Below, piece by piece: positions 5,448 to 42,869 of a stretch of 64,000 nucleotides of DNA. Source of the stretch: Magnetospirillum sp. XM-1 (lineage in GTDB: Bacteria > Pseudomonadota > Alphaproteobacteria > Rhodospirillales > Magnetospirillaceae). The notes beneath the pieces are model-generated. The model did no database searches. It saw only the letters and a list, made by a program, of their open reading frames with translations, and was not told where the DNA came from. The stretch is from the NCBI RefSeq assembly GCF_001511835.1, contig NZ_LN997848.1:2570001-2634000 (forward strand), in the 5' to 3' direction. Each line of letters opens with the position of its first letter. The stretch's first letter is position 1. The position numbers and the translations under genes were made by a program.

Positions 5448-5470
5448 TCAATGCACGGTGCAGACCATGC
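5448..5470. other. attL core, left direct repeat of the prophage
   Basis: The 23-base segment beginning TCAATGCAC and ending GCAGACCATGC matches 42847-42869 at 22 of 23 positions; the single difference (G here, C there) sits in the centre of a TGCACNGTGCA inverted repeat. The right copy is the 3' end of hupV including its stop codon. The segment from 5471 to 5694 holds no convincing gene. Confidence 0.85.
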
Positions 5471-5694
5471 GCAGCCGGGGATTTCGTAAAATCATAAGTG
5501 TTATCAACGCGATGGGCGTGATCCTGGCGCGAATAATCTCCACCAAAAACCCACAGTTACCACCTAGCATTATCAAACACTTACAGGCCCATTCGGGACG
5601 GCATCCGTAGAGGCTGCAGCCAATCGACCGGGTGACTCCGCTGCGCAAAGATGGTGTATTGTCGGACTCGCCCAACCACGAGGGGAGGCCGTCC

Positions 5695-5919
5695 ATGCTC
5701 CGCACCGCCATCATCCTGGCCGCCATTGCCGGCCTCTCTGCCTGCTCGTCCACCTACGAACCCGTGATCGACCTCAAGGCGTCGAAGAACCCGGCCGAAG
5801 CCCAGATGGATTGGATGGGCTGCGAATGGCTGGTCAACAAGTACGGCCTCAACGATGCGGCCACCACCAAGTGCCTGGAAGGGCGCGGGCACAGCGTGAT
5901 CGGCGTGGTCAAGCGGTAA
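5695..5919 (+). CDS. small phage-borne lipoprotein A
   Basis: 74-residue predicted lipoprotein. Residues 1-18 form a signal peptide ending in the lipobox LSAC, so Cys would be lipidated. The mature part has PVIDLKASKNPAEAQ and a later Cys pair. It starts at ATG 5695 after GGGGAGG. It is a paralogue of the next gene (shared P-x-x-DLK-x-S-x-NP pattern) and overlaps it by one base (TAATG). Location between attL and the lysis genes on the opposite strand suggests a lysogenic-conversion gene; function unknown. Confidence 0.7.
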   Translation: MLRTAIILAAIAGLSACSSTYEPVIDLKASKNPAEAQMDWMGCEWLVNKYGLNDAATTKCLEGRGHSVIGVVKR

Positions 5920-6449
5920 TGCGCCGCGTCCTGTTCGCGGGGCTGCTGGCCGCATCCGTGGCGGCATGTGCCCCGGCAAAGCCGCTGGTGGACCTCAAGA
6001 CCACGAGCAACCCCAACGACTATCAACGCGACCTGATCGAGTGCAGCGTCCTGGCGGACATGGGCGTCCAGGCCAACCTGCAGCAGTCCCGCGCATCCCT
6101 GTTCGGATCGTTCGGAGGGGCGGCGGCATCGGGCGCAAGCGCGGCCGTTCTGGGGCCTACGACGGGAACCATCGGCGGGGACATGACCGCAGGCTTCATT
6201 GGCGGTTTCATCGGCGCGCAGATCGCCGCGCCCTTGCGCACCGAGCGCGAGAAAAGCTGGATGGTCGGCCGCTGCCTGGAAAATCGCGGACACCGGCTGC
6301 TCAACGCCAGGGACGTATGGCTCACCCCCGAGCGCCACTGCACCATGCTGATTCTGGAAGACGCCATGGGCGGCAGCGATTACCGCCCATGCGTGGCGGC
6401 CGAGAAGGAACGGCAGCGCCGGATCTACGGGGACAGCGCCGTCGAGTAG
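5919..6449 (+). CDS. phage-borne lipoprotein B with glycine-zipper segment
   Basis: 176-residue predicted lipoprotein. Signal peptide ends in SVAAC; the mature protein begins with AKPLVDLKTTSNP, paralogous to lipoprotein A. A glycine-zipper-like hydrophobic stretch (TIGGDMTAGFIGGFIGAQ) lies mid-protein and several Cys follow. Start ATG 5919 overlaps the previous stop by one base. A cell-surface role in the lysogen, such as blocking superinfection, is a possible reading from position but is not shown. Confidence 0.7.
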   Translation: MRRVLFAGLLAASVAACAPAKPLVDLKTTSNPNDYQRDLIECSVLADMGVQANLQQSRASLFGSFGGAAASGASAAVLGPTTGTIGGDMTAGFIGGFIGAQIAAPLRTEREKSWMVGRCLENRGHRLLNARDVWLTPERHCTMLILEDAMGGSDYRPCVAAEKERQRRIYGDSAVE

Positions 6450-6452
6450 GCA

Positions 6453-6482
6453 CAAAAAAAGGGCCTCCCCGTGGGGAGGCCC
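6453..6482 (-). terminator. rho-independent terminator of the late operon
   Basis: GGGCCTCCCC-GT-GGGGAGGCCC makes a perfect 10-base-pair stem with a two-base loop at 6461-6482. Read on the - strand it is followed by seven T, so it terminates the long late operon just after the holin gene. On the + strand there is no T-run, only an A-run before the stem. Confidence 0.85.
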
Positions 6483-6504
6483 GGTGGCTCATATGATCGA
6501 CCGA

Positions 6505-7017: not shown

Positions 7018-7217
7018 CAGGTGATCTCCTGCGTCAGGGCCGCCACGGCATTGGGATGAAGGCGGCGCGGTTGGCTCGGGTCTCGGCCGCAGCCATCACA
7101 GGCCGCGCGGTCGAAGGCGGTGGAAGTGCAGTTGTTCCAGAGGTTCTCCGGGGTCACGACCGGAGGAAGCCAGCAAGGAGGCTGGCCAGGGCCGAAGCGC
7201 GGATCGGCGGTGTCCAT
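7017..7217 (-). CDS. 66-residue Cys/Pro-rich protein in the lysis cassette
   Basis: Small protein starting at ATG 7217, just after the endolysin stop, with its own stop overlapping the holin start. Contains four Cys, including CDGCG. No signal peptide or TM. The tight coupling on both sides supports that it is translated. Not recognised; could modulate lysis. Confidence 0.5.
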   Translation of the reverse strand: MDTADPRFGPGQPPCWLPPVVTPENLWNNCTSTAFDRAACDGCGRDPSQPRRLHPNAVAALTQEIT

Positions 7218-7219
7218 GG

Positions 7220-7681
7220 TCAGGCCGCCACCTGATCCGGGGTGAGGAACAGCGCCCGCTCGGCCTCGCGCCGCTTGGCCAGGCCGGGGAGAACCTTTCC
7301 GCCCGACTTGTTCCAAACCAGAAACTGCTCGGCGGCCGATACCTTGTCACCGGCATTGAGCCGGGCCAGCAGGGTGGACCCGCGCAGGCGGCCGATGCCG
7401 AGGTTGAACACGAAACTGCAGAGAGCGGCGAACTCGTTGCTCGACAGCGGAACCTTGACCGCCGATGCGACTTGCCGCTCGACATCGGCCAGGTCCATGG
7501 ACAGCAGGAAATCGGCCTGCTCCCTGGTGATGGTGTCGCCCATCTTCACGCCACCAGTGTGGCCATAGCCGATGGTCGGGATGCCGGCCGGGCAGAGATA
7601 GGCGTCGAGACGCAGCCCTTCAGCCGCGCGAATAATTTCTCGGCCGAGCGCGTTGCAGCACGGCATGGTCGCGGTGGTCAT
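7220..7681 (-). CDS. endolysin, T4-type lysozyme (GH24)
   Basis: 153-residue phage lysozyme that cuts the glycan strands of peptidoglycan. The catalytic triad pattern E-8x-(D/C)-5x-T is present as E21, C30 and T36 in AAEGLRLDAYLCPAGIPTIGYG; later FNLGIGRLRGSTLL is typical of the C-terminal lobe. No signal or SAR segment, so release depends on the holin. Start ATG 7681 overlaps the end of the upstream membrane protein by 4 bases. Confidence 0.88.
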   Translation of the reverse strand: MTTATMPCCNALGREIIRAAEGLRLDAYLCPAGIPTIGYGHTGGVKMGDTITREQADFLLSMDLADVERQVASAVKVPLSSNEFAALCSFVFNLGIGRLRGSTLLARLNAGDKVSAAEQFLVWNKSGGKVLPGLAKRREAERALFLTPDQVAA

Positions 7682-8205: not shown

Positions 8206-8302
8206 TCGGTCATTCCCCCAGCACGAAAAGCCGCCCAGCCACGGCCGGACGGCGGTTGATTGATGAAGCGTTGAACTCTTTGCGTTGAACGGGACGCTGG
8301 GC

Positions 8303-10702
8303 CTAGTTGACGTGGACCCTGCTATCCTCGGCCACGGCGCTCACTTCCACTTGGTCAGCGCGCGGCTTAATGGATCGGACCCGAGCAAGCTGGGTCCATT
8401 TTTCACCGGGGCCGAAGCTGAAATAGGTCCGCTCCTCGTCGCTCCCGGTGTAGGGCGTCACCGTCATCGGCTCCAGGAACCGCACCTGGAAGTCCTCGCC
8501 CGTCACGGCCTCGACCTCGAACGGCCCGGCCAGGCGGCCGTCACGGCGGCGCAGGGCGATGTAGTGGGTCGATCCTTCCGTCCACTCCATCGGCTCGGAT
8601 AGGGTCATCACCACGTCCTGCCACGACGGGCTGCCTCCGGTTCCGGCATTGCCGGACGTATCCCAATCCACCACCTCGCCGCCATGGCCCCAGCGCGGCA
8701 TGTCGTGGGTGATGGCGATCAGGTCGCCGAAGGTCGGGATCATGCCGTCCAGTTCAGTGCGGAAGGACACCATCTTGCGGCGATAGCGATTGTCGGCCGC
8801 GATGAAGTCGCCCTCGCGCAGCGCATGCTCCTTGGCGGTGCATCCGAACAGCGACACCTTGGCCGGATTCTCGGCCGCGCTGTCCGGCAGCTTGGCGGTG
8901 ACCTCGTCGGGCTTCCAGGTGCGGTCGCTGAAATACGACACCGTCACCGCGTCGGCGGTGTCGTCGCTCGGCATGATGTACTGGATCTTGAGCGAGTTCT
9001 TGACGATGTTGCGCGGCCCGAACATGGCCACCGGAATAGTCTGCGGCTCGTCGCGCACCACGCGGATCGCCCCACCCTGCAGGATCGGGGCGGCGCGACC
9101 GCAGCGGGCAATGCGGGTCAGCGCCTCCCACACGGTGAGCGAGGAATCGAACACCGCGTCGAACCTGTCGCCACGGGCCTCCCATACCGCGTCGAGCGCA
9201 TGCAGGGCCGCCAGGTCGATGCGGCTGTCCGGCAACTTGGCCCCATAGCTGGCCCGGCACACGTCGGCGAAGGCCCAGGCGATGGAGCGGGTCGCCTGGG
9301 GCGCGCTCCAGCCGGTGGTGGGCGACCACACCGGAATCTTGCGGGTGACCAGGCAGTTGATCAGACGAGACGAACGCTGGGACAGGTTGTCGGTGGCCCG
9401 CATCTTGACCGCCAGCAGCGTCACGTCGCCGAAGTCGGGCGTGCCCACCAGATAGGAGCGCAGGGCGTTCCAGCGGATTTCGTGGCCAGCGCGCGAATCA
9501 GTGTCCTTGTTGTCCAGCCGCTTGGCCTGCACCTCGTAGCGACCGGGCGTCACTGCATACTTGTACGACTTGCGCAGCACGGTGTTGGTGGCGGCAGTGA
9601 CCGATTCGGTGGCGAGAACCGTCCACGATCCGGTGGCGGTTCCGTCGCTGTCGATGGGGCGATACTCGACCTGCCACTGGATGGTCTTGGAATCCAGCCC
9701 GCCGCTGTTGTTGGCGTAGTAGAGGCCGCGCCCGAAGATCACGTCGATTCCCAGGTGCCCCGCCTCGGTATCCACCGGGTTGGCCGCGAACGGCCCGACA
9801 TAGCCGTCCTCTCCGGTGGACAAGGTGTTCGGGGCCTGCAGTTCCTGGCCAGCCACCTCGGGGGCCGACACCACATCGGCCTCGAACAGCGTGACGGTGC
9901 CGCCGGGCGGCACAACCTCGTACTGCACCTCCTCGAACGACGAGAGGGGGGTGTCCTCGATACGGATCTTCTCGATCACGTACTCACCCTGACCAATGAG
10001 GTGAAGCTGGTGCAGGTACTGCTCGTTGTCCACGAACTCGTCGAAGGGAGCGGTGGCGATGTCGGGATAGACCAGATGCCGGCCGTAGATGACCGGGATC
10101 GGCTGCCCCAGGCGCGCCGAGTTGCCCTGCGACTGCAGCGAATAGGTGGGGCTGGGGGCCGGGGTGCTGCCGAAGCCGCCCCAGTTCATGTCGGGGGTGG
10201 ATGGGCGCGGCGCGGGAACCAGGGCGCTCACCAGAGCGGTTCCGGCCATGCCGACCACCGCCGTGCCGATTCCGGCCGCCATTTCCCAGGTGAGGCCCAC
10301 CCCCATCTCGGCGAAGGCCGATCCGATGTACGGGGCCAGTAGGCCGCCGGTATAGATGGCGGCCACCATCACCGCGATCATCAGCACGGTGCGCATGGGA
10401 TTCTTGCCGCCACCGCCACCACCGCCGCCGCCATGGGGAAGGGCCACGAAGGCACAGAGGTCGCCTTGGCGGATTTCCCGGCTCTCCCAGTCGGCGCGCA
10501 GCAGCGGCTCGCCGTTGAACAGGCAGATGGTGGGAAGCGGGAACTCGTCGATCCCGCGCTCGGCCAGGAAGCCGCGCACGGTGATCGGCTCGGCCACCGG
10601 CAGTACGGCACGGCCGCGCTCGGGCTGGAAAGCGTTGGCCACCATCACCACCACGCCCGTGGACAGCGGCAGGCGGATGGGCCTCAGCACCTCGGCGGTC
10701 AT
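8303..10702 (-). CDS. J: central tail fibre protein J, with gpI-like N-terminus
   Basis: 799-residue tail-tip host-specificity protein. Residues 1-90 resemble lambda gpI (compact beta-grasp-like domain, then a run of nine Gly and GKNP). A hydrophobic segment (about 100-170) and a long J-type beta-rich body follow (NSARLGQPIPVIYGRHLV, then DYV/DVTLLAVKMRAT-type modules). It closes the tail tip and probably touches the receptor. Start ATG 10702 overlaps the NlpC/P60 gene by 4 bases. The intergenic part after it (8206-8302) holds nothing clear. Confidence 0.85.
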   Translation of the reverse strand: MTAEVLRPIRLPLSTGVVVMVANAFQPERGRAVLPVAEPITVRGFLAERGIDEFPLPTICLFNGEPLLRADWESREIRQGDLCAFVALPHGGGGGGGGGKNPMRTVLMIAVMVAAIYTGGLLAPYIGSAFAEMGVGLTWEMAAGIGTAVVGMAGTALVSALVPAPRPSTPDMNWGGFGSTPAPSPTYSLQSQGNSARLGQPIPVIYGRHLVYPDIATAPFDEFVDNEQYLHQLHLIGQGEYVIEKIRIEDTPLSSFEEVQYEVVPPGGTVTLFEADVVSAPEVAGQELQAPNTLSTGEDGYVGPFAANPVDTEAGHLGIDVIFGRGLYYANNSGGLDSKTIQWQVEYRPIDSDGTATGSWTVLATESVTAATNTVLRKSYKYAVTPGRYEVQAKRLDNKDTDSRAGHEIRWNALRSYLVGTPDFGDVTLLAVKMRATDNLSQRSSRLINCLVTRKIPVWSPTTGWSAPQATRSIAWAFADVCRASYGAKLPDSRIDLAALHALDAVWEARGDRFDAVFDSSLTVWEALTRIARCGRAAPILQGGAIRVVRDEPQTIPVAMFGPRNIVKNSLKIQYIMPSDDTADAVTVSYFSDRTWKPDEVTAKLPDSAAENPAKVSLFGCTAKEHALREGDFIAADNRYRRKMVSFRTELDGMIPTFGDLIAITHDMPRWGHGGEVVDWDTSGNAGTGGSPSWQDVVMTLSEPMEWTEGSTHYIALRRRDGRLAGPFEVEAVTGEDFQVRFLEPMTVTPYTGSDEERTYFSFGPGEKWTQLARVRSIKPRADQVEVSAVAEDSRVHVN

Positions 10703-13944: not shown

Positions 13945-14454
13945 CTACCAGGCGGAGCCGGGCATGGTGGTGTGGACGGTGGCGTGCAGCGAGGTTATGG
14001 CCGCGAACAGTCCGGTCACGTCCTCGGCCAGCACGATGTTCAAGGCCGGCTCGGTCAGCACCGGGCGCTCGCGGATTTCCAGCGTGGTGGTGACGATCCA
14101 GCGGGACCCCTGACCGGGGCCGCCCCGCTGCGGATTGGCCTTGTACGGGGAATTTCCGCTGCCGACGAACCGCGCCTCGTGGGCGACAATGCCAAGGCCA
14201 CCAAGGAGGTCCATGGAGAACCAAGTGGCACCCTCTTTGCCCTTCCACTTGTACCAAGCCTCGAAAATGCCGAACTCCCACTGAGTGAAGCGCCAGCGGA
14301 CGGGAATGCGGGTCGGGGTCTGGGTGTAGCGGCGTCGCTGGCGGGCGGGGCCAGCCTCCATCTCGGTGCGCAGCACGCCGTCCTGCGGTTCGATGCCGTA
14401 GTTCTCGAACGTGGGCAGCGGCAGCTTGTCGGGCCAGGAAACGGTGGTGGCCAT
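13945..14454 (-). CDS. distal-tail-like structural protein
   Basis: 169 residues between tape measure and fibre genes. Segments RIPVRWRFTQWEFGIFEAWY and WFSMDLLGGLG are of the kind conserved in siphovirus distal tail proteins. The exact family is not certain; position argues for a baseplate/distal tail role. Its start overlaps the tape-measure stop (CATCAG, one base). Confidence 0.55.
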   Translation of the reverse strand: MATTVSWPDKLPLPTFENYGIEPQDGVLRTEMEAGPARQRRRYTQTPTRIPVRWRFTQWEFGIFEAWYKWKGKEGATWFSMDLLGGLGIVAHEARFVGSGNSPYKANPQRGGPGQGSRWIVTTTLEIRERPVLTEPALNIVLAEDVTGLFAAITSLHATVHTTMPGSAW

Positions 14455-17450
14455 CAGCGATACGCTCCTGCAGCCGGGTTAAGGCCGTAACGGCGCTCCA
14501 TGGTGGGGGCGATGCCTTCACCGCGGGCGATGTTGCGGCCCATCCGGGTCTCGATTTCCTCGACGAAGATGTCCAACTGCATGCGACCGCCGCCGCCCTG
14601 CGACCACTGGGCGCGGGCCTGGGCGTTGGGCGCGGAATTGTTGACGTTGACGGTGATCCCCACGGGCGGCTGGGACATGGCCGCCGACAGCAGACGGTCG
14701 GCATTGTCCATTTGACGCGGCGTGAACACCCCTTCGCCGTCCTTGGCGATGATCCGCCGCTCGCCCGCGATCAAGCCACCAGTGTGGTAGCGCGGCGCAC
14801 TGGCCCAGGCCGCCGGTCTGTCGCTGCGGTGGTCGAGGCGATCCGCGCCCAGGATGCCGCCGGTATGGGCGATGGCAAAATTCCCGGTATCGGGCACGGG
14901 AGCGGAACCGCCCGAGGAAGCGGACGCGCCCGCGCCGGACCCGCCCGAGAACATGCTGCCGATGCCGCTGAACATGCTGCCCAGGAAGCCAAATCCGCCA
15001 CTGGCCCCGCCAAAGAACGGGGCAACCACCGACATCCTCCAGGCCGCGCGCAACGCCTCCTCGGCCAGACTGTTGAACAGGTCGCGTCCCGACATCTTGC
15101 CGGTGGTCGCCCACTGCACGAAGGCATCCTCGCTGGCCCGCAATGCGCCGGTCATCGCCCGCTCGGCGTTCAACGCGGCATTGGTCGCCTCGTCCGCGTA
15201 GTCCTGGAGGGCGCGCATGGCACCGTCCTTCCACTCGCGGCTGGCCTCCAGCTTGTCCCGCTCCAGTTCCTTGTACCGGCGGGTATAGGCTTCCTCGGTC
15301 AGCGCCCCGGAGGCCCGCTGCTCGTCCAGTTTGGCCAGTTCGTCCCGAAAGCGCACCGAGGCATCATAGGCCAGATTGGTCTGGTGGGCCTCGTCCTTCA
15401 CCGCCTCGGCATACTGCCGGGCACGGGCATCACGGTACTCGGCGATCTTCGGATCGCCATCCTGCAGCCCACGGGAGCGGGCGAACTTGGCGGTGTCGTT
15501 GTCGATGGTGACATCGCGCACCCGAGCGCGATCACCGCTGCGCATGGCCTCGGCCAGAGCCTGGGCCGCCTTGATCTCGCGCTCCAGGTCGGCGATGGAC
15601 TGGGCCGCGCCAGAGCGGGTGCGCGATTGCTGCAGGCGCTCATAGGATGCCGCCAGTTCGCCGTTGGCATCGGTGAGGCCCTTGGCAGCCTGATCAGCCA
15701 GCCAGTTGGCGCGCTCGGCCGCCTGCACCTCGGACACCGATCCGCGCGCCGAATCGGCCACCCGCTGGTTGGACGCCACCTCTTGGTCGAGAGAGCGCAG
15801 CAGGGTGTTCTTCTGCTCCGCCAGCCGGCCGTCGTCGATGCGGCGCAGGGCGTCATCATAGGACCCAACCGCCGCGCCGCCGTTCTTGAGGGCGAATTCC
15901 AGCACCTTGACCGCGCGGGCCGCGTCCATCTGCGCCCGGCCGCCCTCACGGGCCGCCTGGGCGAGACGCTGCTGGCCGCGCGCCTGCAGGTCGAGCGCGA
16001 CCACCTCTGCCTGGGCCTGGGCGGACAGTTCCCCTTCGCCCTTGAGCTTGGCATCGCGGGCCAGCGCGTCCTTGATTTCCCGTTCCTTGGCCGGGGTGCG
16101 ATAGACGCCACCCTGCTGGAACAGTTCCTTCTCCAACTGCTTATAGCCCTTGGCCGCATCATAGAGCGCCTTGGTGCGGGTGAATTCCGCATTGCCCTTG
16201 GCGCGGGCGGCATTGAGCTTCTCCTGCCACTCCACCTCGAATTGCAGGTCGGTCAACTTCTCGGTGAAGAGAGGCTCACGCTGCTGGGAGCGCACCCGGT
16301 CGCGTTCCGCCTTGGCCTTGGCCTCTTCCTCGGCAGCCTTCTTTTCCGCAGCAGCGATATCATCCAGGATGCGCTGGCGCTCGGACTGGAGCTTGCGAAG
16401 CTCCTCATTGTCCGCCTGCAGGGACGAGGTGAAGCCGCGAAACCCAGTCGCCAACGGCCGCCCCATCGAGCTACCGCTCGACGCCCGCGCGATACGGTCC
16501 TCAACGTCCTTGAGTTGGGCCGCGAGACTTCCGTCGCTGGGAGTGGATTCCTCCAGCACGCGCGCGGCGAAATTGGCGCTGCCGGACAGAACACCACGCA
16601 GCCAGGGGGCATTGGTGAAATTCGTCCAGGCATTGGACATCCGGGTGACGGCGCGCTCGGTGGTGTTGGCGCTCTCCGCCGCCGCCGCGTCGAAGCTTTT
16701 AAGAGCGGTGATCAGGGTGTCGCGGAAGAAATCGGCCGTGACCTTGCCCTGATTGACCAACTGGCGGAAACCACCGGCAGGGAGGCCGGCAGCGCGGTCG
16801 AGGGCCTGCAGCAGGCCGGGCATAGGCTCGACCACCTGATTCAGTTCCTCGGCGCGCAGCGTGCCCGACGACAGGCCCTGCGCCAGGCCGAACAGCGACT
16901 GCCCCAATTGTTCGCTGTTGACGCCCAGGGCCATGGCCGTGGACTGGAACCCAGCAAGCAGCGCCCGCGCTTCGCCCGTGGTGATGATGCCGGACTTCTG
17001 CAGCACCATCAGGCGCGAATACGACTCGATAGTGGAATCGAGCGCGGTGCCAGTCTTTTGCGCCTGGGCGTACAGGTAGCGGGTGGTCTCGGCGAGAGCG
17101 GACTGACCGACCAGACCTTTCAGCCGCGCCTCCAGCGTCTCCACCTTGATGGTGGAATCCACCATGGCTTTGCCGAACACCGCGATGGCGGCCCCAGCGG
17201 CAATGCCGATGGGGCCGAGCGCCGTCATGGCCGAACCGAGTGGGCCGAGACGGCTGGCCACGGCGGAGAGTTCACCACGGACGCCACCGCTGGCCGCGTT
17301 CACGGCCAGCAGACCCTTGGACGCAGGTTGGGCGGCGGCTTCGATACGGGAAAGCGCCTTCTGGCCATCCTCGCCCAGTTGGAGCAGGGCGCGCCTTACC
17401 GTCTCTCCATCCTGGAGGGACAGGCGGATGGCAATGGACCTAGTCGCCAT
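14454..17450 (-). CDS. tail tape measure protein
   Basis: 998 residues. The N-terminal tape-measure domain is recognisable (SGIITTGEARALLAGFQSTA and LFGLAQGLSSGTLRAEELNQ, about residues 150-210). Long alpha-helical, Gln/Ala/Arg-rich middle (330-760) and Gly-rich C-terminal region near residue 860 follow. It sets tail length; at the known 1.5 angstrom per residue the tail would be roughly 150 nm. Its start is overlapped by the frame-shifted T extension, as in lambda. Confidence 0.9.
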   Translation of the reverse strand: MATRSIAIRLSLQDGETVRRALLQLGEDGQKALSRIEAAAQPASKGLLAVNAASGGVRGELSAVASRLGPLGSAMTALGPIGIAAGAAIAVFGKAMVDSTIKVETLEARLKGLVGQSALAETTRYLYAQAQKTGTALDSTIESYSRLMVLQKSGIITTGEARALLAGFQSTAMALGVNSEQLGQSLFGLAQGLSSGTLRAEELNQVVEPMPGLLQALDRAAGLPAGGFRQLVNQGKVTADFFRDTLITALKSFDAAAAESANTTERAVTRMSNAWTNFTNAPWLRGVLSGSANFAARVLEESTPSDGSLAAQLKDVEDRIARASSGSSMGRPLATGFRGFTSSLQADNEELRKLQSERQRILDDIAAAEKKAAEEEAKAKAERDRVRSQQREPLFTEKLTDLQFEVEWQEKLNAARAKGNAEFTRTKALYDAAKGYKQLEKELFQQGGVYRTPAKEREIKDALARDAKLKGEGELSAQAQAEVVALDLQARGQQRLAQAAREGGRAQMDAARAVKVLEFALKNGGAAVGSYDDALRRIDDGRLAEQKNTLLRSLDQEVASNQRVADSARGSVSEVQAAERANWLADQAAKGLTDANGELAASYERLQQSRTRSGAAQSIADLEREIKAAQALAEAMRSGDRARVRDVTIDNDTAKFARSRGLQDGDPKIAEYRDARARQYAEAVKDEAHQTNLAYDASVRFRDELAKLDEQRASGALTEEAYTRRYKELERDKLEASREWKDGAMRALQDYADEATNAALNAERAMTGALRASEDAFVQWATTGKMSGRDLFNSLAEEALRAAWRMSVVAPFFGGASGGFGFLGSMFSGIGSMFSGGSGAGASASSGGSAPVPDTGNFAIAHTGGILGADRLDHRSDRPAAWASAPRYHTGGLIAGERRIIAKDGEGVFTPRQMDNADRLLSAAMSQPPVGITVNVNNSAPNAQARAQWSQGGGGRMQLDIFVEEIETRMGRNIARGEGIAPTMERRYGLNPAAGAYR

Positions 17451-18390: not shown

Positions 18391-18630
18391 GTGTCGCTTT
18401 CCATCAATCGACAACTCAAGGCAGCCCGCGCCCTCGTCGGGTGGGAGCAAAGTGACCTCGCCGCCGCCGCCGGGGTCGCTGTTGGCACTATCCGGCGCAT
18501 GGAAAGCATTGAAGGCCCCATCCGGGGCCAGCATGAAACGGTGATGAAGGTCCAGCAGGCGCTGGAAGCGGCCGGGATTGAATTCCTCAATCACGGCGCT
18601 CCAGGCGTCCGCCTCAGACCATCACGCTAG
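18391..18630 (+). CDS. small XRE-family HTH regulator inserted among tail genes
   Basis: 79 residues. HTH domain at about 5-60 (INRQLKAARALVGWEQSDLA, VAVGTIRRMES), ending in FLNHGAPGVRLRPS, an ending shared by many short alphaproteobacterial XRE proteins. GTG start at 18391 with AAGGGA upstream; an in-frame TTG at 18349 is less likely. It is the only + strand gene in the late region and its stop overlaps that of the tail tube gene head to head. It looks like a moron expressed from its own promoter in the lysogen. Confidence 0.75.
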   Translation: MSLSINRQLKAARALVGWEQSDLAAAAGVAVGTIRRMESIEGPIRGQHETVMKVQQALEAAGIEFLNHGAPGVRLRPSR

Positions 18631-29456: not shown

Positions 29457-30014
29457 TCAAGGGGCCATCCAAGGGTTGCGGTCGAAGCCCGGTCCAGTGA
29501 CCATATGGTCCTCCAGATCGTCCAGCTTGGCAGCGAGGGTGGCGAGGGCGTCCCACCACTCCTCGTACATGGCGCGGGCGAAGGCGATGCTCTCCGGGTC
29601 GGGCACCAGTTCGACGCAGCAATATGCCGGGCGCTTCTGCTCCCGATCCCAGTACTCCATCTTGGGCTTGCCGTTGCTGCGCAGGATGGGGCGGTAGGCT
29701 GGCTCCTCGCCCTCCATCCAGTCGGGCCGCAGGCCGGACTTGGCGTACTCGATCACCAGCCCGACCTGCAGGGCGGGCAGCGACCGCACCGCGTCGTGGA
29801 CCGCCTCGGCATCGGGGTGGAGATCGTCGGGGCACAGGCCGGGACCGGAGCAGTCGATCCGCACGCCCAGCAACCCCTGCTGCACCACGGCGTTGAGCAT
29901 GCTGCCATAGCCCGAGGGCCACAGGCCGCGCACCACGCGCTTGGTCACCGCATCCGCCGCCTGGGCTTGATATGTCCAGTGCAGCAGCCGTTCGATGTCG
30001 ATCACGGTTTTCAT
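29457..30014 (-). CDS. unrecognised protein in the position of a Q antiterminator
   Basis: 185 residues from ATG 30014. N-terminal IERLLHWTYQAQAADAVTKR is a helical region; the rest is mixed and acidic, ending EDHMVTGPGFDRNPWMAP. No enzyme motif. Last gene of the - strand early operon and immediately before a terminator and the late genes, which is where Q-type antiterminators lie. Function is inferred only from place. Confidence 0.5.
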   Translation of the reverse strand: MKTVIDIERLLHWTYQAQAADAVTKRVVRGLWPSGYGSMLNAVVQQGLLGVRIDCSGPGLCPDDLHPDAEAVHDAVRSLPALQVGLVIEYAKSGLRPDWMEGEEPAYRPILRSNGKPKMEYWDREQKRPAYCCVELVPDPESIAFARAMYEEWWDALATLAAKLDDLEDHMVTGPGFDRNPWMAP

Positions 30015-30967
30015 GCCCGCGCTCCATAGCCATGGCTGGCCAGCACGTCGGCGGGCACGAGGCAACCATCCTCACCGGGGCGCGGACCCCAGCCGTCCAC
30101 CCAGAAGCCCTTGGATCGGAAGGACTCCACCCGCTGCACCCATGGGGTCGCGTCCAGGATGCCGTTGCCGCCTGCCTCGGCCGTTGCCGAGCCTTCCTCC
30201 GCCAGCGAGCGCATCACCCGGTCGAGGTAGGCCCACGGCCGCCCGATGCTGGTGCCGGATTCCTTGGCGGCGGTGAACACCCGCTCCACCTCGGCCAACA
30301 CCCGATCCTCGGACAGCCCCAGGTCGAACCACCCACGGACCTGCCTCACCCCCTCCACGTCGGTGGAAACCAGCTTGGTCCCGATCCAACCCTGATCCTT
30401 GCCGATCAGCGTCCAGACCAACTTCCGAACCCGATCCACAGCATCGCTTGGTGCCGCCGATGGGACTTGCCGGGGGGGAGATGGGGGGGATTCCCTTCCT
30501 TTCCCTTCCTTTCCCTTCCCTTCCGGGGTCGAACGGTCCCCGATTGATCGGTGATCGTTCGGAGAGCTATCGTCGAAAGATCGACGTGAACTCTCCGCAT
30601 TAACCCGCTCTTTTCCCCCGTTATTCGGCGATATAGCGTCTGGATTCGGGTACTTATAGTTTGGGCGCTCCACCTTCTGGTGCTTACTCCAGCCGGTGAC
30701 CCGCAGGTATTCCGTACCGTCCGAGTCGAAGAACGCGATCAGCCGGTGGCGCACCAAATCGTCGAGCATTCCCCGAATGCTGTCCGACGTGATGTCATCA
30801 TCGGCCGGAAACACCCGCATCTTGATCACCTTGGGCGCGGCCGGGTGAATGCCCGCGTCATCGCAGATATTCCAGATGCCGATGAACAGCAGCCGCGCAT
30901 CTCTGGAGCATTCAACGATCTGCTCACTCGTCCAGAATTCAGGCTTAATCGTTCTGATGCGCGCCAT
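30011..30967 (-). CDS. phage replication initiator / replisome organiser
   Basis: 318 residues from ATG 30967 (MARIRTIKPEFWTSEQI). The N-terminal winged-helix domain (RLLFIGIWNICDDAGIHP, VRHRLIAFFDSDGTEYLRVTG) is of the DnaD/replisome-organiser kind common upstream of phage DnaB. A low-complexity EGKGKEGKGRE linker and a C-terminal helical domain follow. It would bind the origin and load the helicase made by the neighbouring gene. ATGA overlap with the previous gene. An in-frame ATG at 30982 is possible. Confidence 0.7.
   Translation of the reverse strand: MARIRTIKPEFWTSEQIVECSRDARLLFIGIWNICDDAGIHPAAPKVIKMRVFPADDDITSDSIRGMLDDLVRHRLIAFFDSDGTEYLRVTGWSKHQKVERPNYKYPNPDAISPNNGGKERVNAESSRRSFDDSSPNDHRSIGDRSTPEGKGKEGKGRESPPSPPRQVPSAAPSDAVDRVRKLVWTLIGKDQGWIGTKLVSTDVEGVRQVRGWFDLGLSEDRVLAEVERVFTAAKESGTSIGRPWAYLDRVMRSLAEEGSATAEAGGNGILDATPWVQRVESFRSKGFWVDGWGPRPGEDGCLVPADVLASHGYGARA
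30491..30524. repeat. TTCCCTTCCT tandem repeat inside the replication gene
   Basis: TTCCCTTCCT is repeated about three times, encoding the Lys/Gly/Glu linker of the replication protein. In lambda the origin iterons also lie inside the initiator gene O, so this repeat deserves note, though it is simple sequence. Confidence 0.5.
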
Positions 30968-31194
30968 CACAAGATCTCCCATTCTTTTGCGACCAAGCGA
31001 ATGGCTGCAATGGCAGCAGCCACGTCGACTTCGTCCGCGTCGATCACCACCGCGATTTCCTGGTAGTCGATCGGCTTGTCGCGCTTGTAGAAATCTTCGA
31101 TGCACCACATCACGGCTAAAATCAGGGATCTAGAAACCCCAGCCTTCTCAGCGACATCGGCCGCAAATCGTAGCCGTTTATCATCCATTGCCAT
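30967..31194 (-). CDS. small acidic helical protein of the replication operon
   Basis: 75 residues from ATG 31194 (MAMDDKRLRFAADVAEKAG). Not recognised. All-helical; SRSLILAVMWCIEDFY then EIAVVIDADEVDVAAAI. It overlaps the helicase gene by 14 bases upstream and the initiator by 4 bases downstream, so it is co-expressed with replication genes. Confidence 0.55.
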   Translation of the reverse strand: MAMDDKRLRFAADVAEKAGVSRSLILAVMWCIEDFYKRDKPIDYQEIAVVIDADEVDVAAAIAAIRLVAKEWEIL

Positions 31195-32647
31195 CCTCCC
31201 CTGTGTCATGGTCGAGGTTTGCGAAGCGGCAATACTGGCCATGGAAGGCCAGCCGGACGGTCCCCACGGGACCATTGCGCTGCTTGGCGACGATCACCTC
31301 GCCCGTGTTCCAGACCTCCTCGCAGCGGTGCTGCCAGCGGCTGAAACGGTCATTGAACTTGTCGTCGGATTCGTCGGCGCGTCGGTGCGGCTCGGCGCGC
31401 TCCAGGTAGTACTGCTCGCGGAACACGAACATCACCACGTCGGCATCCTGCTCGATGGCCCCCGATTCGCGCAGGTCGGCCAACTGCGGGCGCTTGTCCT
31501 CGCGCTGCTCGACGCTGCGGTTCAACTGGGCCAGCAGCAGGACCGGCACCTCCAACTCCTTTGCCAGACCCTTGAGTGCCTTCGAGATGGTGGCCAGTTC
31601 GACATTGCGGTTCTCGCCGCCGTTGCCGGACACGAGGTGTAGGTGGTCGACCACCACCAGCTTGAGGCCGTTCTTGCGCTTGACCCGCCGCGCGCGGGCG
31701 CGGATCGCCGCGACGGTGAGGCCGGGCGTGTCGTCGATGATCACGGGCAGCCGGCCGAGATCCTGGCCCGCCAGGCACAGGGCCTCCATCTGCTGGGCGG
31801 TGACGCGGCCGTTGCGGATGGCGTGGAATGGAATCTCGGTGGCGGCGGCCATGGCGCGCTGGCCGAGTTCCTCCTTGGTCATTTCCAGGGAGAAGATCAT
31901 CACCATGCCGCCGCCGGCCTCGGTGGCGAGCGCCGAGGCGTTGCGGGCGATGTTCTCGCCCAGCACGCTCTTGCCCATGCTCGGGCGTCCTCCCAGCAGG
32001 TACAGGCAGCCGGGCTGCAGGCCCGAGATCAGCTTGTCCAGGCGGTCGAACCCGGAAGGCAGGCCGAGCAGCGACCGCTCGCCCTTGTAAACGGCCTCCA
32101 CCGTGCTCACCACGCGCGGCAGGATGGTGGACACCGACTCGGGCTTGCCGCCGAGCGAGGCGTCGGCTGCCAGATCGGTGAGGCTGCCCTCCAACTGCTC
32201 GACGATGGCCTTGGCCGGAACTTCCCAGCGCGGGTCGTAGGCTTCTCCCATGGCGGACATGCACGCCTCGATGATGGCGCGGCGGTCGGCCATGTCGCGC
32301 ACCAGCTTGGCGTAATCGTCGGCATTGATGGTGCTGATCACGCTATTGGCCAACTGGGCGAGGTAGACGGTGCCGCCGATGTCGGCCAACCCCGAATCAC
32401 GCTCGAAGTAGGACTTGAGCGTGACCGGGTTCGGCTTCTGGCCCTGATCGGACAGGTCGCGGATGGCGGCATAGATGCGGCCGTGGGCGGGGTCGGCGAA
32501 GTGCTCGGGCGCGACGATCTCCGCCACCTTGTCCAGCACGGCCGAATTCAGCAGCAGCGCGCCGAGCAGGGCCTGCTCCGCCTCATAATTATGGGGCGGT
32601 GTCCGCAGTGCGGTGTCGGCCGGCGACCACGACGCCTGATGGGTCAT
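31181..32647 (-). CDS. replicative DNA helicase, DnaB family
   Basis: 488-residue hexameric helicase. N-terminal DnaB domain (PPHNYEAEQALLGALLLNSA, about 15-110), RecA-like ATPase with Walker A GGRPSMGKS near residue 220 and Walker B around LVVVDHLHLV, then VPVLLLAQLNRSVEQR and a C-terminal arginine region. Full length. Drives phage replication forks together with the downstream initiator. Confidence 0.92.
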   Translation of the reverse strand: MTHQASWSPADTALRTPPHNYEAEQALLGALLLNSAVLDKVAEIVAPEHFADPAHGRIYAAIRDLSDQGQKPNPVTLKSYFERDSGLADIGGTVYLAQLANSVISTINADDYAKLVRDMADRRAIIEACMSAMGEAYDPRWEVPAKAIVEQLEGSLTDLAADASLGGKPESVSTILPRVVSTVEAVYKGERSLLGLPSGFDRLDKLISGLQPGCLYLLGGRPSMGKSVLGENIARNASALATEAGGGMVMIFSLEMTKEELGQRAMAAATEIPFHAIRNGRVTAQQMEALCLAGQDLGRLPVIIDDTPGLTVAAIRARARRVKRKNGLKLVVVDHLHLVSGNGGENRNVELATISKALKGLAKELEVPVLLLAQLNRSVEQREDKRPQLADLRESGAIEQDADVVMFVFREQYYLERAEPHRRADESDDKFNDRFSRWQHRCEEVWNTGEVIVAKQRNGPVGTVRLAFHGQYCRFANLDHDTGEDGNG

Positions 32648-34074: not shown

Positions 34075-34484
34075 TGATTCCCACCCAAAGAAGTGCCGGG
34101 CGCAGGGTGTTCGCCCCGGCCCGGCGAGGTGAGGGAGGAAACGCCCGTGGGCGCAGCACCGATATTGTCCCCAGCGGGGGCCGCCTCGGCGCAGGGCGGC
34201 ATGGGCAGGGCGAGCACCGCCCCGGCAAGGTAGACGATGGCCCCCAGCAACTCGGCGCGGGCGCGGTGCGGCTGGCCCTCGGCCACCATGCGGGCGGCCT
34301 CCTGCGCCTTCTTGCAGGCTTGGCCCAGGGGGAACCCGATGCCCACCATGTTGGTGATCGCCATCATGGGCTGGGCCTCGAACGGCTCGCCGCTGGCGTG
34401 CCGCTCCTTGCCCTTGCCGTGGGCGGCCTGGGCATAGGCTTGGGCCAGTACCTCCTGCAGGGATTCGTAGCCGGGGGCGATCAT
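34071..34484 (-). CDS. conserved phage early protein
   Basis: 137 residues. The block HGKGKERHASGEPFEAQP followed by GFPLGQACKKAQEAARM recurs in early regions of unrelated siphoviruses, but I know no function for it. Hydrophobic helix near residue 85-95 and a disordered Pro/Gly tail. 4-base overlaps on both sides. Confidence 0.55.
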   Translation of the reverse strand: MIAPGYESLQEVLAQAYAQAAHGKGKERHASGEPFEAQPMMAITNMVGIGFPLGQACKKAQEAARMVAEGQPHRARAELLGAIVYLAGAVLALPMPPCAEAAPAGDNIGAAPTGVSSLTSPGRGEHPAPGTSLGGNQ

Positions 34485-34963
34485 CGGCCGCTCCCCATGG
34501 CATCGGCATCAATGGCCGCTTCCAGCTCGTCGATCTCACGGCGCAGGTCGCGCATGGCGGCGCGCACGTCGCGGTATTCGTTGGCGGTGATCGAACGGCC
34601 ACCTTCCGAGTGGGCCGCCGTCACCCGCCGGATGGTGGCCACCAGGCGGCCGACCGCCTCGGGCACGTCGAGCGTTTCATCCAGCACATCGCCGAATTCC
34701 GTGGGGCCTTCGCCGCACAACCGTTTCAGGGCATGCAGGTAGGCGGCCAGGAACGGCGCGCGGCCCTTGAATCGGCGGGCGAACTCGGCATCCATCTGCA
34801 CCGCTTGGTGCAGGGTGGGCCGCCCCTCCTTATCGGGATCGGTCCAGGCCCGCACCGCCCCCTCGGATCGGTCCATAAGGCGGGCGCACTCGGGCACACC
34901 CAATCCGACCGCCACTTCCATGGCGGCATCCTCGAAACTTTCCGGCGAGCGCGGCTTGGTCAC
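34481..34963 (-). CDS. possible CII-like phage regulator
   Basis: 160 residues from GTG 34963, with AAGGGGAAAGC upstream. Residues 15-75 contain a helix-turn-helix-like segment (GVPECARLMDRSEGAVRAWT, then RPTLHQAVQMD) as in CII-class phage activators; C-terminal helices follow. It is the second - strand gene after cro, where CII lies in lambda. No experimental-type motif proves it. Confidence 0.5.
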   Translation of the reverse strand: MTKPRSPESFEDAAMEVAVGLGVPECARLMDRSEGAVRAWTDPDKEGRPTLHQAVQMDAEFARRFKGRAPFLAAYLHALKRLCGEGPTEFGDVLDETLDVPEAVGRLVATIRRVTAAHSEGGRSITANEYRDVRAAMRDLRREIDELEAAIDADAMGSGR

Positions 34964-35516: not shown

Positions 35517-36284
35517 ATGACCAAGCATTATGTGAAACAGTGGCGCAAGGCGCGGGGGATGACCCAGGAAGATCTGGCCGACGCCATCGACCGGGCCGTT
35601 GCCACCGTGTCCCGAATCGAGGGCGGGCATATCGGCCTCACCCAGGACACTACCGAGGCTATTTCGCGCGCCTTCGGAATCGATCCAGGTGCGCTTTACG
35701 CGCCGCCGCCGGAAGGCACCAGGCCGCTACGCCAGGACGAATTGGGGCAGGTCGGGCGGGTCTCCATCCGCAAGCCGAAGCCGGGGGTGCAGATCATCGA
35801 CCCGGCCGCCGGATCGGGAGCGTTCCTGATGGACGCGTTACGCCGGACCCGCGCAGAGGGCTTGGTGACGGATGGTTTGGTCGGCGAGCAGCGCGACCTC
35901 CCGATCTATGCCGCCGCCCAGGGCGGATCGACCGGAATGACCATCGACTTCGAGCATCCTATGGAGTGGGTGAAGCGCCCCGAGCCGCTGTTCGGTGTGA
36001 AGGGGGGATTCGGCATGTACGTGATTGGAGAGTCCATGGAGCCGGCCTATCGCCAGGGCGACATGATCCTGGTTCATCCCAGCCGCCCGGCTAACCGAGG
36101 CGACGACGTGCTGGTGGTTAAGGCGGACGGCAATGGCAAGCACGACGCCCTGGTGAAGACCTTGATCACCGCCGACTCCGAGCGGGTGAAGCTCAAGCAG
36201 TACAATCCGGCCGAGGAATTCGACATTCCCCGCGCCGAAGTATTCGGTATCTATCTCATCGTCGGGAAATACAACCGACGATGA
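35517..36284 (+). CDS. CI-like phage repressor (XRE HTH plus S24 peptidase)
   Basis: 255 residues from ATG 35517 (AAGGAT upstream). HTH at about 8-55 (KARGMTQEDLADAI, ATVSRIEGGHIGLT), hinge, then a LexA/CI-type S24 domain with catalytic Ser173 in GESMEPAYRQGD and Lys202 in VLVVKADG. A candidate self-cleavage bond Ala98-Gly99 lies in the hinge (DPAAGSG). DNA damage would trigger cleavage and induction of the prophage. Keeps lytic genes on both sides silent. Confidence 0.88.
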   Translation: MTKHYVKQWRKARGMTQEDLADAIDRAVATVSRIEGGHIGLTQDTTEAISRAFGIDPGALYAPPPEGTRPLRQDELGQVGRVSIRKPKPGVQIIDPAAGSGAFLMDALRRTRAEGLVTDGLVGEQRDLPIYAAAQGGSTGMTIDFEHPMEWVKRPEPLFGVKGGFGMYVIGESMEPAYRQGDMILVHPSRPANRGDDVLVVKADGNGKHDALVKTLITADSERVKLKQYNPAEEFDIPRAEVFGIYLIVGKYNRR

Positions 36285-39591: not shown

Positions 39592-39594
39592 GCC

Positions 39595-40125: not shown

Positions 40126-40128
40126 GCC

Positions 40129-40455
40129 ATGCTCGCCGCCGCGTCAGACACCCCGTCAAACGCTTCTCCCGCTCCCCGGAACCAGCCGCAACTGCAGCAC
40201 TGCCGGGAATGCGGCCACCCGTTCTATGCCGCCCGCAAGGACCAGGAATTCTGCCGGCCGAAATGCCGCCAGGACTGGCACAAGCGCCGGTACGAGCGCG
40301 GGGCCGCCCTCTACGACTTCGCCATGGAATGGCGCGGCAAGCGCCTCAAGGGCGGCTTCACCAGGCTGTGCCAGATGATCGACGAATGGCTCCGCGACGA
40401 GCGCGAGCGCAAGGTCCGCAACAAGGCCATGCGGAACGGAGGGAAGCATGACTGA
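40129..40455 (+). CDS. small zinc-finger phage protein
   Basis: 108 residues. CRECGHPFYA and FCRPKCRQDWHKRRYERG give a CxxC...CxxxC zinc site of a type seen in many phage early proteins; C-terminal helices are strongly basic. May bind DNA or RNA. Overlaps xis by 8 bases. Confidence 0.65.
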   Translation: MLAAASDTPSNASPAPRNQPQLQHCRECGHPFYAARKDQEFCRPKCRQDWHKRRYERGAALYDFAMEWRGKRLKGGFTRLCQMIDEWLRDERERKVRNKAMRNGGKHD

Positions 40456-40678
40456 CCCTCGGCTGATACCGCTCTCATCATGGGCGGAACGCGAGTACGG
40501 CGAGGCCCGCCCCCACGCCAACACCTTGTATTCCTGGGTGCGCGATGGAAAAATCTTTCCGCCGCCCGAGAAGCACGGCCGAACCTACTTCGTCAGGGCG
40601 GACGCGGTGTACAGCCCGTGTGGGCGACCCACGCCATCCCTGGTCGAGAGGATCAATGCCGCCCGGAAGGCGTCGTAG
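40448..40678 (+). CDS. xis: excisionase (Xis-like)
   Basis: 76 residues. HTH segment RPHANTLYSWVRDGKIFPPPEKHGRTYFVRADAVY has the lambda-Xis pattern in outline (W-V-R-x-G-K-I-F-P-P-P). Directs integrase toward excision. Its stop is one base before the integrase start. Confidence 0.75.
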   Translation: MTDPRLIPLSSWAEREYGEARPHANTLYSWVRDGKIFPPPEKHGRTYFVRADAVYSPCGRPTPSLVERINAARKAS

Positions 40679-40679
40679 C

Positions 40680-41777
40680 ATGGCCCGGCGCGATTGGCCC
40701 GCCAACGTGAAGTGTCGGCGGGGCGGTTATTATTCATGGGTGGACCCGACCACCGGCAAGGAATACGGCATCGGGCGGGACAAGCGCGCAGCCTTCGCCC
40801 AGGCCGTCCAGGCCAATCTCCACGTCCTCGGCCTGCGCGAGAAGCGCAGCTTGATCGACCGCATTACCGGGGCCGGCGACACCACCTTCACCAAGTTGGC
40901 CGATCTGGTGCGCGCCGATATCGACAAGCGGCTGGAGCGCAAGAAGATCGCCAAGTCCTCGGCCGATTCCTTCCGCCAGCGCCTCCGCACAATTGAGGGG
41001 CAATGGTCGGACAAGAAGGTCGAGCACATCACCACCAAGGATGTCGCCGATTTCATCCGCAGCTATGAGGATGCCGGCAAGGAACGGATGGCCCAGGCCA
41101 TGCGCTCGTTCCTGCTGTCGGTGTTCAACGAAGCCATCGCCGCTGGCTGGATCAGCACCAACCCCGTCGCCGTGACCAAGGCGGTCACGGTCGAGGTGGA
41201 ACGCTCGCGCCTGACCCTCGAAGACTTCCTCAAGATCCACGCCTATGCCCTGGAGCACATGCCGGCTCGGGTGGCGCGCTCGATGGAGTTGGCGCTGATC
41301 AGCGGCCAGCGGCGCGAGGACTTGCGTGGACTGGGGCCGCGCGATGTCCATGACGGCCGGCTGTGGGTCATCCAGGGCAAGGGCGGGAATCGGGTGTCCA
41401 TACCGCTCGACATCCGCCTGCAGGCGGTGAATTGGTCTCTGTCCGATGTGATTGGCCGCTGCCGCGACAACGTGCTCTCGCGGTACTTCCTTCACCACAG
41501 CGCCATAGCAGGCAGGGCCAAGCCGGGCGACCCGATCCGGGTCCAGACGATCTCGGGGGAATTCGCCGAGGCCCGCGATAAGGCCGGGGTCACCGGCTCC
41601 GATGGCAAGACCCCGCCGACCTTCCATGAGATCCGATCACTGGCCGCCAGGCTGTGGACGGACGAGCGCGGTGAAGCTTTCGCTAAGGCGCTCCTCGGCC
41701 ATAAGTCTGCCGAGATGGCCGCCCTTTACCGCGACAAACGTGGAGATGACTGGATCAGCGTTCCGACACAGCAATAA
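40680..41777 (+). CDS. int: lambda-type tyrosine integrase
   Basis: 365 residues from ATG 40680. N-terminal arm-binding domain like lambda Int (RRGGYYSWVDPTTGKEYGIG), core-binding domain (about 75-175), catalytic domain with R211, H316, R319, H341 and nucleophile Y350. Complete and apparently functional. Recombines at the 3' end of hupV. Homologous to the remnant at 4498-5372. Confidence 0.92.
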   Translation: MARRDWPANVKCRRGGYYSWVDPTTGKEYGIGRDKRAAFAQAVQANLHVLGLREKRSLIDRITGAGDTTFTKLADLVRADIDKRLERKKIAKSSADSFRQRLRTIEGQWSDKKVEHITTKDVADFIRSYEDAGKERMAQAMRSFLLSVFNEAIAAGWISTNPVAVTKAVTVEVERSRLTLEDFLKIHAYALEHMPARVARSMELALISGQRREDLRGLGPRDVHDGRLWVIQGKGGNRVSIPLDIRLQAVNWSLSDVIGRCRDNVLSRYFLHHSAIAGRAKPGDPIRVQTISGEFAEARDKAGVTGSDGKTPPTFHEIRSLAARLWTDERGEAFAKALLGHKSAEMAALYRDKRGDDWISVPTQQ

Positions 41778-41788
41778 GAACGAAGGGC

Positions 41789-42370
41789 CTATGATCCGTT
41801 ATTAAGTATTTCTTGAATTATAAGTCCGTAGTTTTGCTGGAAAAGCCTTGGAACATATTGTTGCGGAATACGGAGTTGCAGGGCAATTGAGTAGTCATCG
41901 ATCTTCCCGCTTTTTCTTAATTCCATAAAATTAATGCGCTTGTCTTCTGGACACAGGCAGGCTAGTGCCATCCAAAATGCCTTTATTTCAGACCTCCACT
42001 GAGGAGATCGGGTTGGAGTTTCTGCTCCAGACATTTCACTGAGTAGCGTATCAAATTCGTGGCCGCCGAAAGTAGATTCGGCATGTGCGTCAAATAAATG
42101 CATTAGCTCTTTGATGTAAACGATTCTTTGCCAGCATCTATTCATGCCCCTAGCAAGAACTATCACATCGCAGCCGCATTGGCGGGCAATGTTGCTTTCG
42201 TTATTCCCAAAAGATATGAACATCCCTCGACAAAGAGATGGATCAGAGTCGGTGCATACAACTCTGATCTTCTCTTTTCCGGTGAGCCGAAGAACCTCGG
42301 ATTTTATGAAGTTTCTAGGGATGTGGAGGCTTTGCTTTTGGCAAATTTCATAAAGGTCGCGATACGGCAT
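41789..42370 (-). CDS. ImmA/IrrE-like protein with altered HExxH (cargo)
   Basis: 193 residues from ATG 42370. The segment RIVYIKELMHLFDAHAE resembles the zinc-peptidase helix of ImmA/IrrE proteins but reads K87-E-L-M-H91, so the first His of HExxH is Lys. C-terminal part may be a second small helical domain. Visibly AT-rich and rare-codon rich compared with the phage. It lies between int and attR, opposite in direction, the typical place of lysogenic cargo. Second gene after the small ORF at 42381. Confidence 0.6.
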   Translation of the reverse strand: MPYRDLYEICQKQSLHIPRNFIKSEVLRLTGKEKIRVVCTDSDPSLCRGMFISFGNNESNIARQCGCDVIVLARGMNRCWQRIVYIKELMHLFDAHAESTFGGHEFDTLLSEMSGAETPTRSPQWRSEIKAFWMALACLCPEDKRINFMELRKSGKIDDYSIALQLRIPQQYVPRLFQQNYGLIIQEILNNGS

Positions 42371-42380
42371 GATCAGAGAT

Positions 42381-42560
42381 TCAGTCCTCAATCACGTCAT
42401 AATCGCCAGCATCAAGTTGGCCGATAATCTTGTTAACCTGCTCGGCAATCTGCTCCTGGGTAACATCGCGGTTGCTCCCAGGGAATAACTTGACATTGCT
42501 GACTTGCAGCCCGCCATCCCCGAACAAACGGTTCTTGGCGATCTCTAGATTGGTTCCCAT
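42381..42560 (-). CDS. 59-residue protein upstream of the IrrE-like gene
   Basis: Open frame from ATG 42560 (GAAGGGGA upstream) to TGA at 42381-42383. NLEIAKNRLFGDGGLQVSNV, then an acidic end VTQEQIAEQVNKII...DAGDYDVIED. Ten bases before the next gene. The acidic small protein plus peptidase-like protein order resembles antitoxin/regulator pairs; that is inference. The 286 bases from 42561 to 42846 hold no gene that I can support and include the attR arm. Confidence 0.5.
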   Translation of the reverse strand: MGTNLEIAKNRLFGDGGLQVSNVKLFPGSNRDVTQEQIAEQVNKIIGQLDAGDYDVIED

Positions 42561-42846
42561 AGGTCAATCCCCTTCTATTATTAAATTGGCTCCCGAGGTC
42601 AGGAGCATTCGGCAAAACACGGATCTCTGCGCGCCCGAACATAGAAACAGAAGCGCAGGAGCATGGAAGGGAGGGAATCTTTCTCTATGTAGGCAGATGT
42701 CAAGAGATTTGTAAACATGACTCTCGGCATCGCAGCATTCCAACCAAACAACCCTAACGATTCCGCCAACCCCATTCAATTAGTGACGCCAGAGGGACAA
42801 ATTCGTGACGCATGGTGTTAATTCATTGAAATGTAAAGATAAATTT

Positions 42847-42869
42847 TCAATGCACCGTGCAGACCATGC
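42847..42869. other. attR core, within the 3' end of hupV
   Basis: Right copy of the 23-base repeat (22/23 identical to 5448-5470). It encodes the end of hupV (CMVCTVH and stop), so integration keeps the gene whole. The one mismatch is a synonymous third position of the Thr codon in that reading. GTGACGC occurs twice between 42783 and 42812, possible integrase arm sites. Confidence 0.85.

Follow-up and report, generated by a model that had tools for sequence, protein, structure and literature searches.

A prophage bounded by two copies of the end of hupV

We analysed a 64,000-nucleotide stretch of Magnetospirillum sp. XM-1 (contig NZ_LN997848.1, forward-strand positions 2,570,001 to 2,634,000; hereafter the window, to which plain coordinates refer). 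It carries a complete-looking, lambda-type prophage of 37,399 bp that abuts hupV, the gene for the large subunit of a regulatory-type [NiFe] hydrogenase, and that is bounded by two copies of an attachment site (att; window 5448-42869). The site is a 23-base repeat, TCAATGCACSGTGCAGACCATGC, which occurs exactly twice in the window (5448-5470 and 42847-42869) with a difference of one base between the copies (22/23 identical). In 100 dinucleotide-preserving shuffles, zero matches to the repeat were obtained with up to 3 mismatches allowed. The 3´ end of hupV (42847-44292, minus strand; Pfam PF00374) forms the right copy, which comprises the codons for CMVCTVH and the stop. The minus-strand translation from 44292 to 42847 ends in FDPCMVCTVH-stop, with no extension past the C-terminal His, and these residues align with the CxxCxxH motif at the C-terminus of a [NiFe] hydrogenase of known structure. 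Regulatory hydrogenases (HupV/HoxC), as a rule, terminate at this His without an extension. NCBIfam models match the protein only below their cut-offs, and HupV is the name that we presume for the large subunit. The small-subunit gene hupU (44289-45314, minus strand; Pfam Oxidored_q6 and NiFe_hyd_SSU_C) adjoins it.

On the hupV side of the prophage, a lambda-type excisionase gene, xis (40448-40678, plus strand; Pfam PF07825, E 3.1e-16; phrog_629 excisionase), lies directly upstream of int (40680-41777, plus strand), which encodes a full-length lambda-type tyrosine integrase. Residues 3-361 of Int match the lambda Int structures (E 1.4e-67), and its Pfam domains, Arm-DNA-bind_1, Phage_int_M / SAM_1 and Phage_integrase, correspond to the arm-binding, core-binding and catalytic parts. 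The catalytic set of tyrosine integrases is R-K-H-R-H-Y; R211, K234, R319, H341 and Y350 are invariant across five aligned integrases, and the window Int has H316 at a position where the integrase of one relative (G008) has Tyr. Among the matches listed, the best named phage integrases are those of the Pseudomonas phi2 group and of HK022 and its relatives, at approximately 40-42% identity (HK022 Int, 40.4%). Judged by its genes alone, the element holds the set of a temperate lambda-like siphophage, with repressor, terminase, portal, capsid, tape measure, J-like fibre and endolysin. An earlier, sequence-only reading had described a lambda-like prophage whose ends are a 23-base repeat, with the right copy formed by the hupV end and its Ni-ligand codons and with the gene restored upon insertion. 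These points are supported: hupV, the probable attachment site, is left whole and reads through to its stop.

A second, presumably older unit lies to the left of the prophage

The same reading took the element for one prophage in clean host DNA, and this part does not hold, as the prophage belongs to a tandem array with an older integrase and a third att copy on its left. The 3´ part of the older integrase gene (int1; 4493-5372, plus strand; left edge taken from a DNA match to G046, genomes being cited by G numbers with XM-1 as G000) ends 75 bases before the left att, and its product is 58% identical to Int over 279 amino acids. G046 has this integrase (94.7% identical in DNA over 977 bases) in whole form, next to that genome's own second att. 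The missing piece, which is continuous in G046, lies inverted 8.5 kb away in XM-1, fused to the remainder of a radical-SAM gene. An inversion, the joints of which share TTGCCGA, has therefore disrupted the older unit. The inversion (window 4094-4504 and L033:7163-8100) cuts the radical-SAM gene as well as the integrase. The older unit also holds a serine-recombinase gene (PF00239).

The third att copy is found at C1:2550682 of the XM-1 genome, 24,767 bases to the left of the second, so that the older unit, with its broken integrase, is flanked by att copies at both ends. A partly similar sequence follows the third copy. In a search for the original host flank, 8,651 bases left of this copy matched relatives piecemeal only, in 13 of the 17 genus genomes (XM-1 included). 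A 13-base match to the core of the site at C1:2680749 was also considered and rejected as an att copy, because the att sequence does not extend into the flanking bases and the match lies within long open reading frames (ORFs).

A single prophage in original host DNA, with the left att as a plain border between host and phage, would accord with the number of full att copies within the window, which is only two. It is, however, at odds with the related integrase that ends 75 bases away, with the third copy 24.8 kb further on and the partly similar sequence after it, and with the occurrence of the same integrase at the second att of G046; we regard it as very improbable. Because the end of a second integrase and the third att copy lie left of 5448, the left att is read as a junction between two elements, where the far end of the prophage meets the older unit, as the neighbouring arms also suggest. 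The third copy and the broken second integrase therefore point to hupV as a re-used attachment site of the bacterium (attB) at which elements accrete in tandem.

The putative crossover lies between two cysteine codons

To locate the strand exchange, each of 14 internal att copies (two each in G000, G043 and G056, three in G034, and one each in G046, G048, G003, G026 and G055) was compared column by column with the hupV end of its own genome. The copies had been found by a pattern that spans the core plus 12 bases to its right, with up to 3 or 4 mismatches allowed; the three copies of G034 are unlinked to its hupV contig and were chosen by exact match. The core CATGGTSTG agrees in 14/14 comparisons in eight of its nine columns and in 13/14 in the remaining one, a conservation that is partly built in because these columns lie within the search pattern. 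This does not apply to the left edge or to the far right of the comparison, which the pattern does not reach. Agreement falls to 2/14 at the first base left of the core and averages approximately 4.9/14 over the 30 columns on that side. To the right, the losses of agreement are mainly at third codon positions, which agree in 12 (Cys), 8 (Thr), 10 (Val) and 10 (His) of the 14 comparisons, and in the stop codon, where two columns agree in 9 and 11; soon past the stop, agreement is down to 0-5. In G003, Ala replaces Thr.

In the hupV frame, the core reads TG[C ATG GTS TG]C and is situated between the two cysteine codons of CxxC. In the window it is represented by CATGGTCTG (42860-42868, minus strand; second copy at 5461-5469). 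From these comparisons we infer that the strand crossover lies within CATGGTSTG, and, by analogy with lambda, the 7-bp overlap would be ATGGTST. From the same columns, the last codons of hupV appear to be supplied by the adjoining element. The sequence-only reading had the target as one that the host cannot easily change, which stands for the amino acids, which are nearly fixed; it does not stand for the third codon positions, which vary among hupV ends and which the element probably brings with it.

The repeat encodes a conserved motif, and it might have been gained as hydrogenase sequence by homologous recombination, with the specificity of the integrase playing no part. Yet the identity of the internal copies is lost one base left of CATGG and soon past the stop, and an integrase and arm-type repeats adjoin the repeat in two families, so this explanation is extremely improbable.

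The hupV 3´ ends of G003 and G026 (L138 and L144) are followed by a common, differing sequence, TCCCAACATCCGTCCACCATGCGTCC, and in both genomes a second att-like copy lies at 2.5-2.7 kb. A different integrase lineage may use the same site there.

Arm-type repeats accompany the site in most relatives

Tandem arm-type sites in P' are a mark of lambda-type integrases. The arm test scored three 9-mers spaced 10-12 bases apart after the hupV stop, or at the equivalent place at three internal att copies, in 23 ends with an integrase or integrase remnant; it was devised after some of the repeats had been seen. A score of at least 19 is reached in 21 of the 23 ends and a score of at least 21 in 17, with repeats at approximately 11 bp, like the P' arms of lambda. 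The repeats start 24-38 bases past the stop, and their sequences vary between lineages. In 18 of the 23 ends, the score is unmatched by any of 100 shuffles. Random flank windows reach 19 in 16/192 cases and 21 in 4/192, and among 30 hupV ends without a neighbouring integrase only G038 and G027 reach 19. The end of G037 scores 17, a value that 11 of 100 shuffles equal or exceed.

Integrases of the same type are found at hupV in other genomes

The sequence-only reading had proposed a search of related genomes. An integrase of the same type is found at hupV in further members of the family and also in one betaproteobacterial family. In 55 family genomes, strong matches to Int (E<=1e-20) number 10 in seven genomes (G000, G039, G046, G008, G044, G043 and G034), and all lie downstream of hupV. 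The nearest match is 77-113 bp from hupV in G039, G008, G044, G043 and G034 and beside the second att, 9.3 kb away, in G046. Shorter C-terminal integrase remnants follow hupV in G037, G047 and G041, and one lies 2.5 kb downstream in G003; one weak integrase fragment of G044 sits on a different contig. A scan of the genome_contigs collection gave 17 integrase loci, of which four adjoin HupV (in Dechloromonas, a Rhodocyclales metagenome-assembled genome (MAG), Telmatospirillum and Magnetospirillum), one belongs to the G046 array and 12 lie elsewhere, with uvrB-like, ArsC-like and ferredoxin-like genes among their neighbours as judged by eye. In the Rhodocyclales MAG, the hupV element (G056:C10:125095-152435; L202, L203) has ORFs that by eye resemble a type I restriction-modification set.

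The Dechloromonas family, which is betaproteobacterial, yielded 22 matches at E<=1e-20 in 21 of 395 genomes, figures that count integrase matches and not hupV carriers. HupV was sought within approximately 1.5 kb on each side of a match. Eleven of the 22 matches, in 11 genomes and including the ten best, have HupV at 71-353 bp from the integrase; the other 11 are at most 36% identical to Int and have no HupV within that distance.

The att pattern, at up to 3 mismatches, has 33 matches in 15 of 17 genus genomes, and the reversed pattern has none. Extra att copies lie past the hupV end on the same contig in G000, G043, G046, G048, G003, G026, G055 and G056, and three copies of G034 are on a contig unlinked to hupV; the scan of flanks that contributed to this set covered 22 of 39 hupV flanks, with L127 and L128. 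Att copies with a single specificity stand between successive units, which is the mark of a tandem accretion array. A comparison of the prophage proteins with the other fetched hupV flanks (E<=1e-8) gave matches to Int and, in G039, one to the repressor, but to no other protein.

Such an array might instead arise by duplication of one integrated element. Near-identical integrases occur in different genomes (the pairs G039b and G044, and int1 of G000 and that of G046), and the units on contig C32 of G034 have similar arms, as duplication would predict. The two integrases of XM-1, by contrast, share 58% identity, the two of G039 belong to separate, supported groups on the integrase tree, the arms differ from unit to unit, and the phage genes of the window are unlike the genes of the older unit. 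Duplication is thus an unlikely source of the array when set against independent insertions at hupV.

The sequence itself establishes the att copies, including the third, as well as the genes present, the frame of hupV and the co-occurrence with hupV in other genomes. It is highly probable that the hupV 3´ end is the attB of a lambda/HK022-type integrase family and that the window records two tandem insertions that kept hupV whole. Several observations count against this interpretation. In the window, int lies approximately 1.1 kb from att, with two small low-GC ORFs standing in its place on the hupV side of the prophage, whereas the strong family relatives and the betaproteobacterial loci lie far closer to HupV. 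The arm score of the window is 17, which 8 of 100 shuffles equal and which is weak. Besides the core conservation partly built into the search, columns -9 and -29 on the left side of the core agree in 13/14 and 11/14 comparisons. A search of viral contigs with the hupV end gave 0 matches, and neither excision nor a phage attachment site (attP) was seen; a search of these contigs with int gave one weak locus only. In a sample of 385 genomes of the class, XM-1 alone had a match at E<=1e-30, and the 395-genome figures carry the limit on counting given above. On the integrase tree (17 rows; L186, L189, L190, L192 and L194 excluded, where the frame of L192 and L194 is broken and the branch of L192 is spuriously long), the use of hupV requires two changes, and a single clade of hupV users appears in 0% of 200 bootstrap trees, although such a clade is not rejected either (approximately unbiased test, p 0.32). 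Finally, the unit in the window is the only one demonstrated as a phage.

The hydrogenase cluster that follows hupV elsewhere lies far from it in XM-1

A conserved hydrogenase cluster, whole or in part, starts 0.6-7 kb past hupV in 12 genomes that belong to other genera. It starts within 0.8 kb in G014, where its genes by eye are a hydrogenase small subunit and HybA-, HybB- and HybC-like genes, and at approximately 2.4 kb in G037, with an integrase remnant in between. The distance from hupV is 99.6 kb in G043 and, by position, approximately 298 kb in G039 and 1.3 Mb in XM-1, where the cluster occupies G000:C1:3913711-3919312. The separation is consistent with integration at hupV, and further rearrangements must also have acted in XM-1.

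Remaining genes of the prophage and the window

A CI-like repressor (35517-36284, plus strand; phrog_4, E 2.4e-24) is followed on the minus strand by a weakly matching CII-like activator (34481-34921; phrog_101, E 4.1e-05), a DnaB-like replicative helicase (31181-32647), a replication initiation protein (30011-30967) and a ParB-like / DNA methyltransferase protein (27877-29151). The packaging and head genes, all on the minus strand, encode the terminase small subunit (27289-27849), the terminase large subunit (25323-27311; best among the matches listed, Aurantimonas phage AmM-1 at 47%), a head-tail joining protein (24760-25323), the portal protein (23267-24760) and the major head protein (21350-23251), the N-terminal part of which matches a head-maturation protease. 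The minor tail protein family (18627-19589), the tail tape measure protein (14454-17450), a central tail fibre J-like protein (8303-10702) and the endolysin (7220-7681) are encoded on the same strand. Seven prophage ORFs submitted to PADLOC gave no match.

To the right of hupUV, a large type I polyketide synthase-like protein of 2034 amino acids (54857-60961), with NCBIfam matches below the cut-offs, adjoins another long ORF (47861-54148). Elsewhere in the genome, the matches listed include at least seven tyrosine-recombinase genes on G000:C1 (for example, 79521-80003) with identical scores and 300-amino-acid frames, and these seven are probably copies of one mobile element.

A model for accretion at hupV and its relation to known systems

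In the proposed mechanism, Int would exchange strands within CATGGTSTG at the hupV end, and the attP of the element would carry a recoded remainder of the gene, namely the third base of the Cys codon, Thr, Val, His and the stop, so that hupV would be whole after insertion. The att copy on the hupV side would stay a usable target, and later elements could therefore enter there and push older ones outward. The window would then reflect two events, the hupV-proximal prophage (5448-42869) and the 24.8-kb older unit on its left, with the integrase of the latter broken by inversion. The older unit was presumably inserted first and the prophage later, and the prophage may remain able to excise.

The system resembles lambda and HK022 in its full-length, three-domain Int with a PF07825 xis directly upstream, and, for most of the relatives tested, in direct repeats that flank the core at a spacing of approximately 11 bp. 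The attB of lambda is intergenic; here it is the hupV 3´ end, and Int is 40% identical to that of HK022. Many genomic islands target protein genes and often restore them, as described in PMC12884075. Like such gene-restoring islands and phages, the element described here has a 3´-end target and would rebuild the gene, but its crossover is placed between metal-ligand cysteine codons, and the element would therefore supply the last conserved residues of an active-site motif. Compared with tandem accretion of integrative and conjugative elements, integrative and mobilizable elements and cis-mobilizable elements (ICE/IME/CIME), the proximal unit here is a lambda-type prophage. A CIME keeps its att sites and has lost its conjugation and integration genes; with att copies at both ends and a broken integrase, the older unit is at most a candidate for this class. 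For the cyanobacterial hupL element (XisC), PMC4874684 reports site-specific recombination within the gene of a [NiFe] hydrogenase large subunit. There, hupL is interrupted by the element until heterocysts develop and the element is excised, whereas hupV is intact to its stop and the recombinase is of the lambda type. The sequence-only reading had supposed that hupV had not been described as attB, and searches of an open-access library listed no such account; the statement of novelty reaches as far as these searches. The use of hupV as attB is a new, clear case of an already known phenomenon, gene-restoring integration.

The locus offers a natural case in which synonymous differences place the crossover of a lambda-type integrase inside a metal-ligand motif. 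Integration at hupV may account for the strong divergence of the DNA downstream of hupV among these bacteria, and the hupV end offers a landing site that is conserved and gene-restoring in hosts of value to biotechnology, such as magnetosome formers and H2 oxidisers. A further-reaching proposal, which we put forward as speculative and rather doubtful, is that hupV serves as a dedicated accretion hub in Alpha- and Betaproteobacteria, where each incoming phage or island recodes its last codons, splits hupUV from the original hydrogenase genes and places int (in the window, the two small low-GC ORFs) so that it is read against or after hupUV transcription. If this were true, H2 sensing and lysogeny could become coupled through insertions at hupV.

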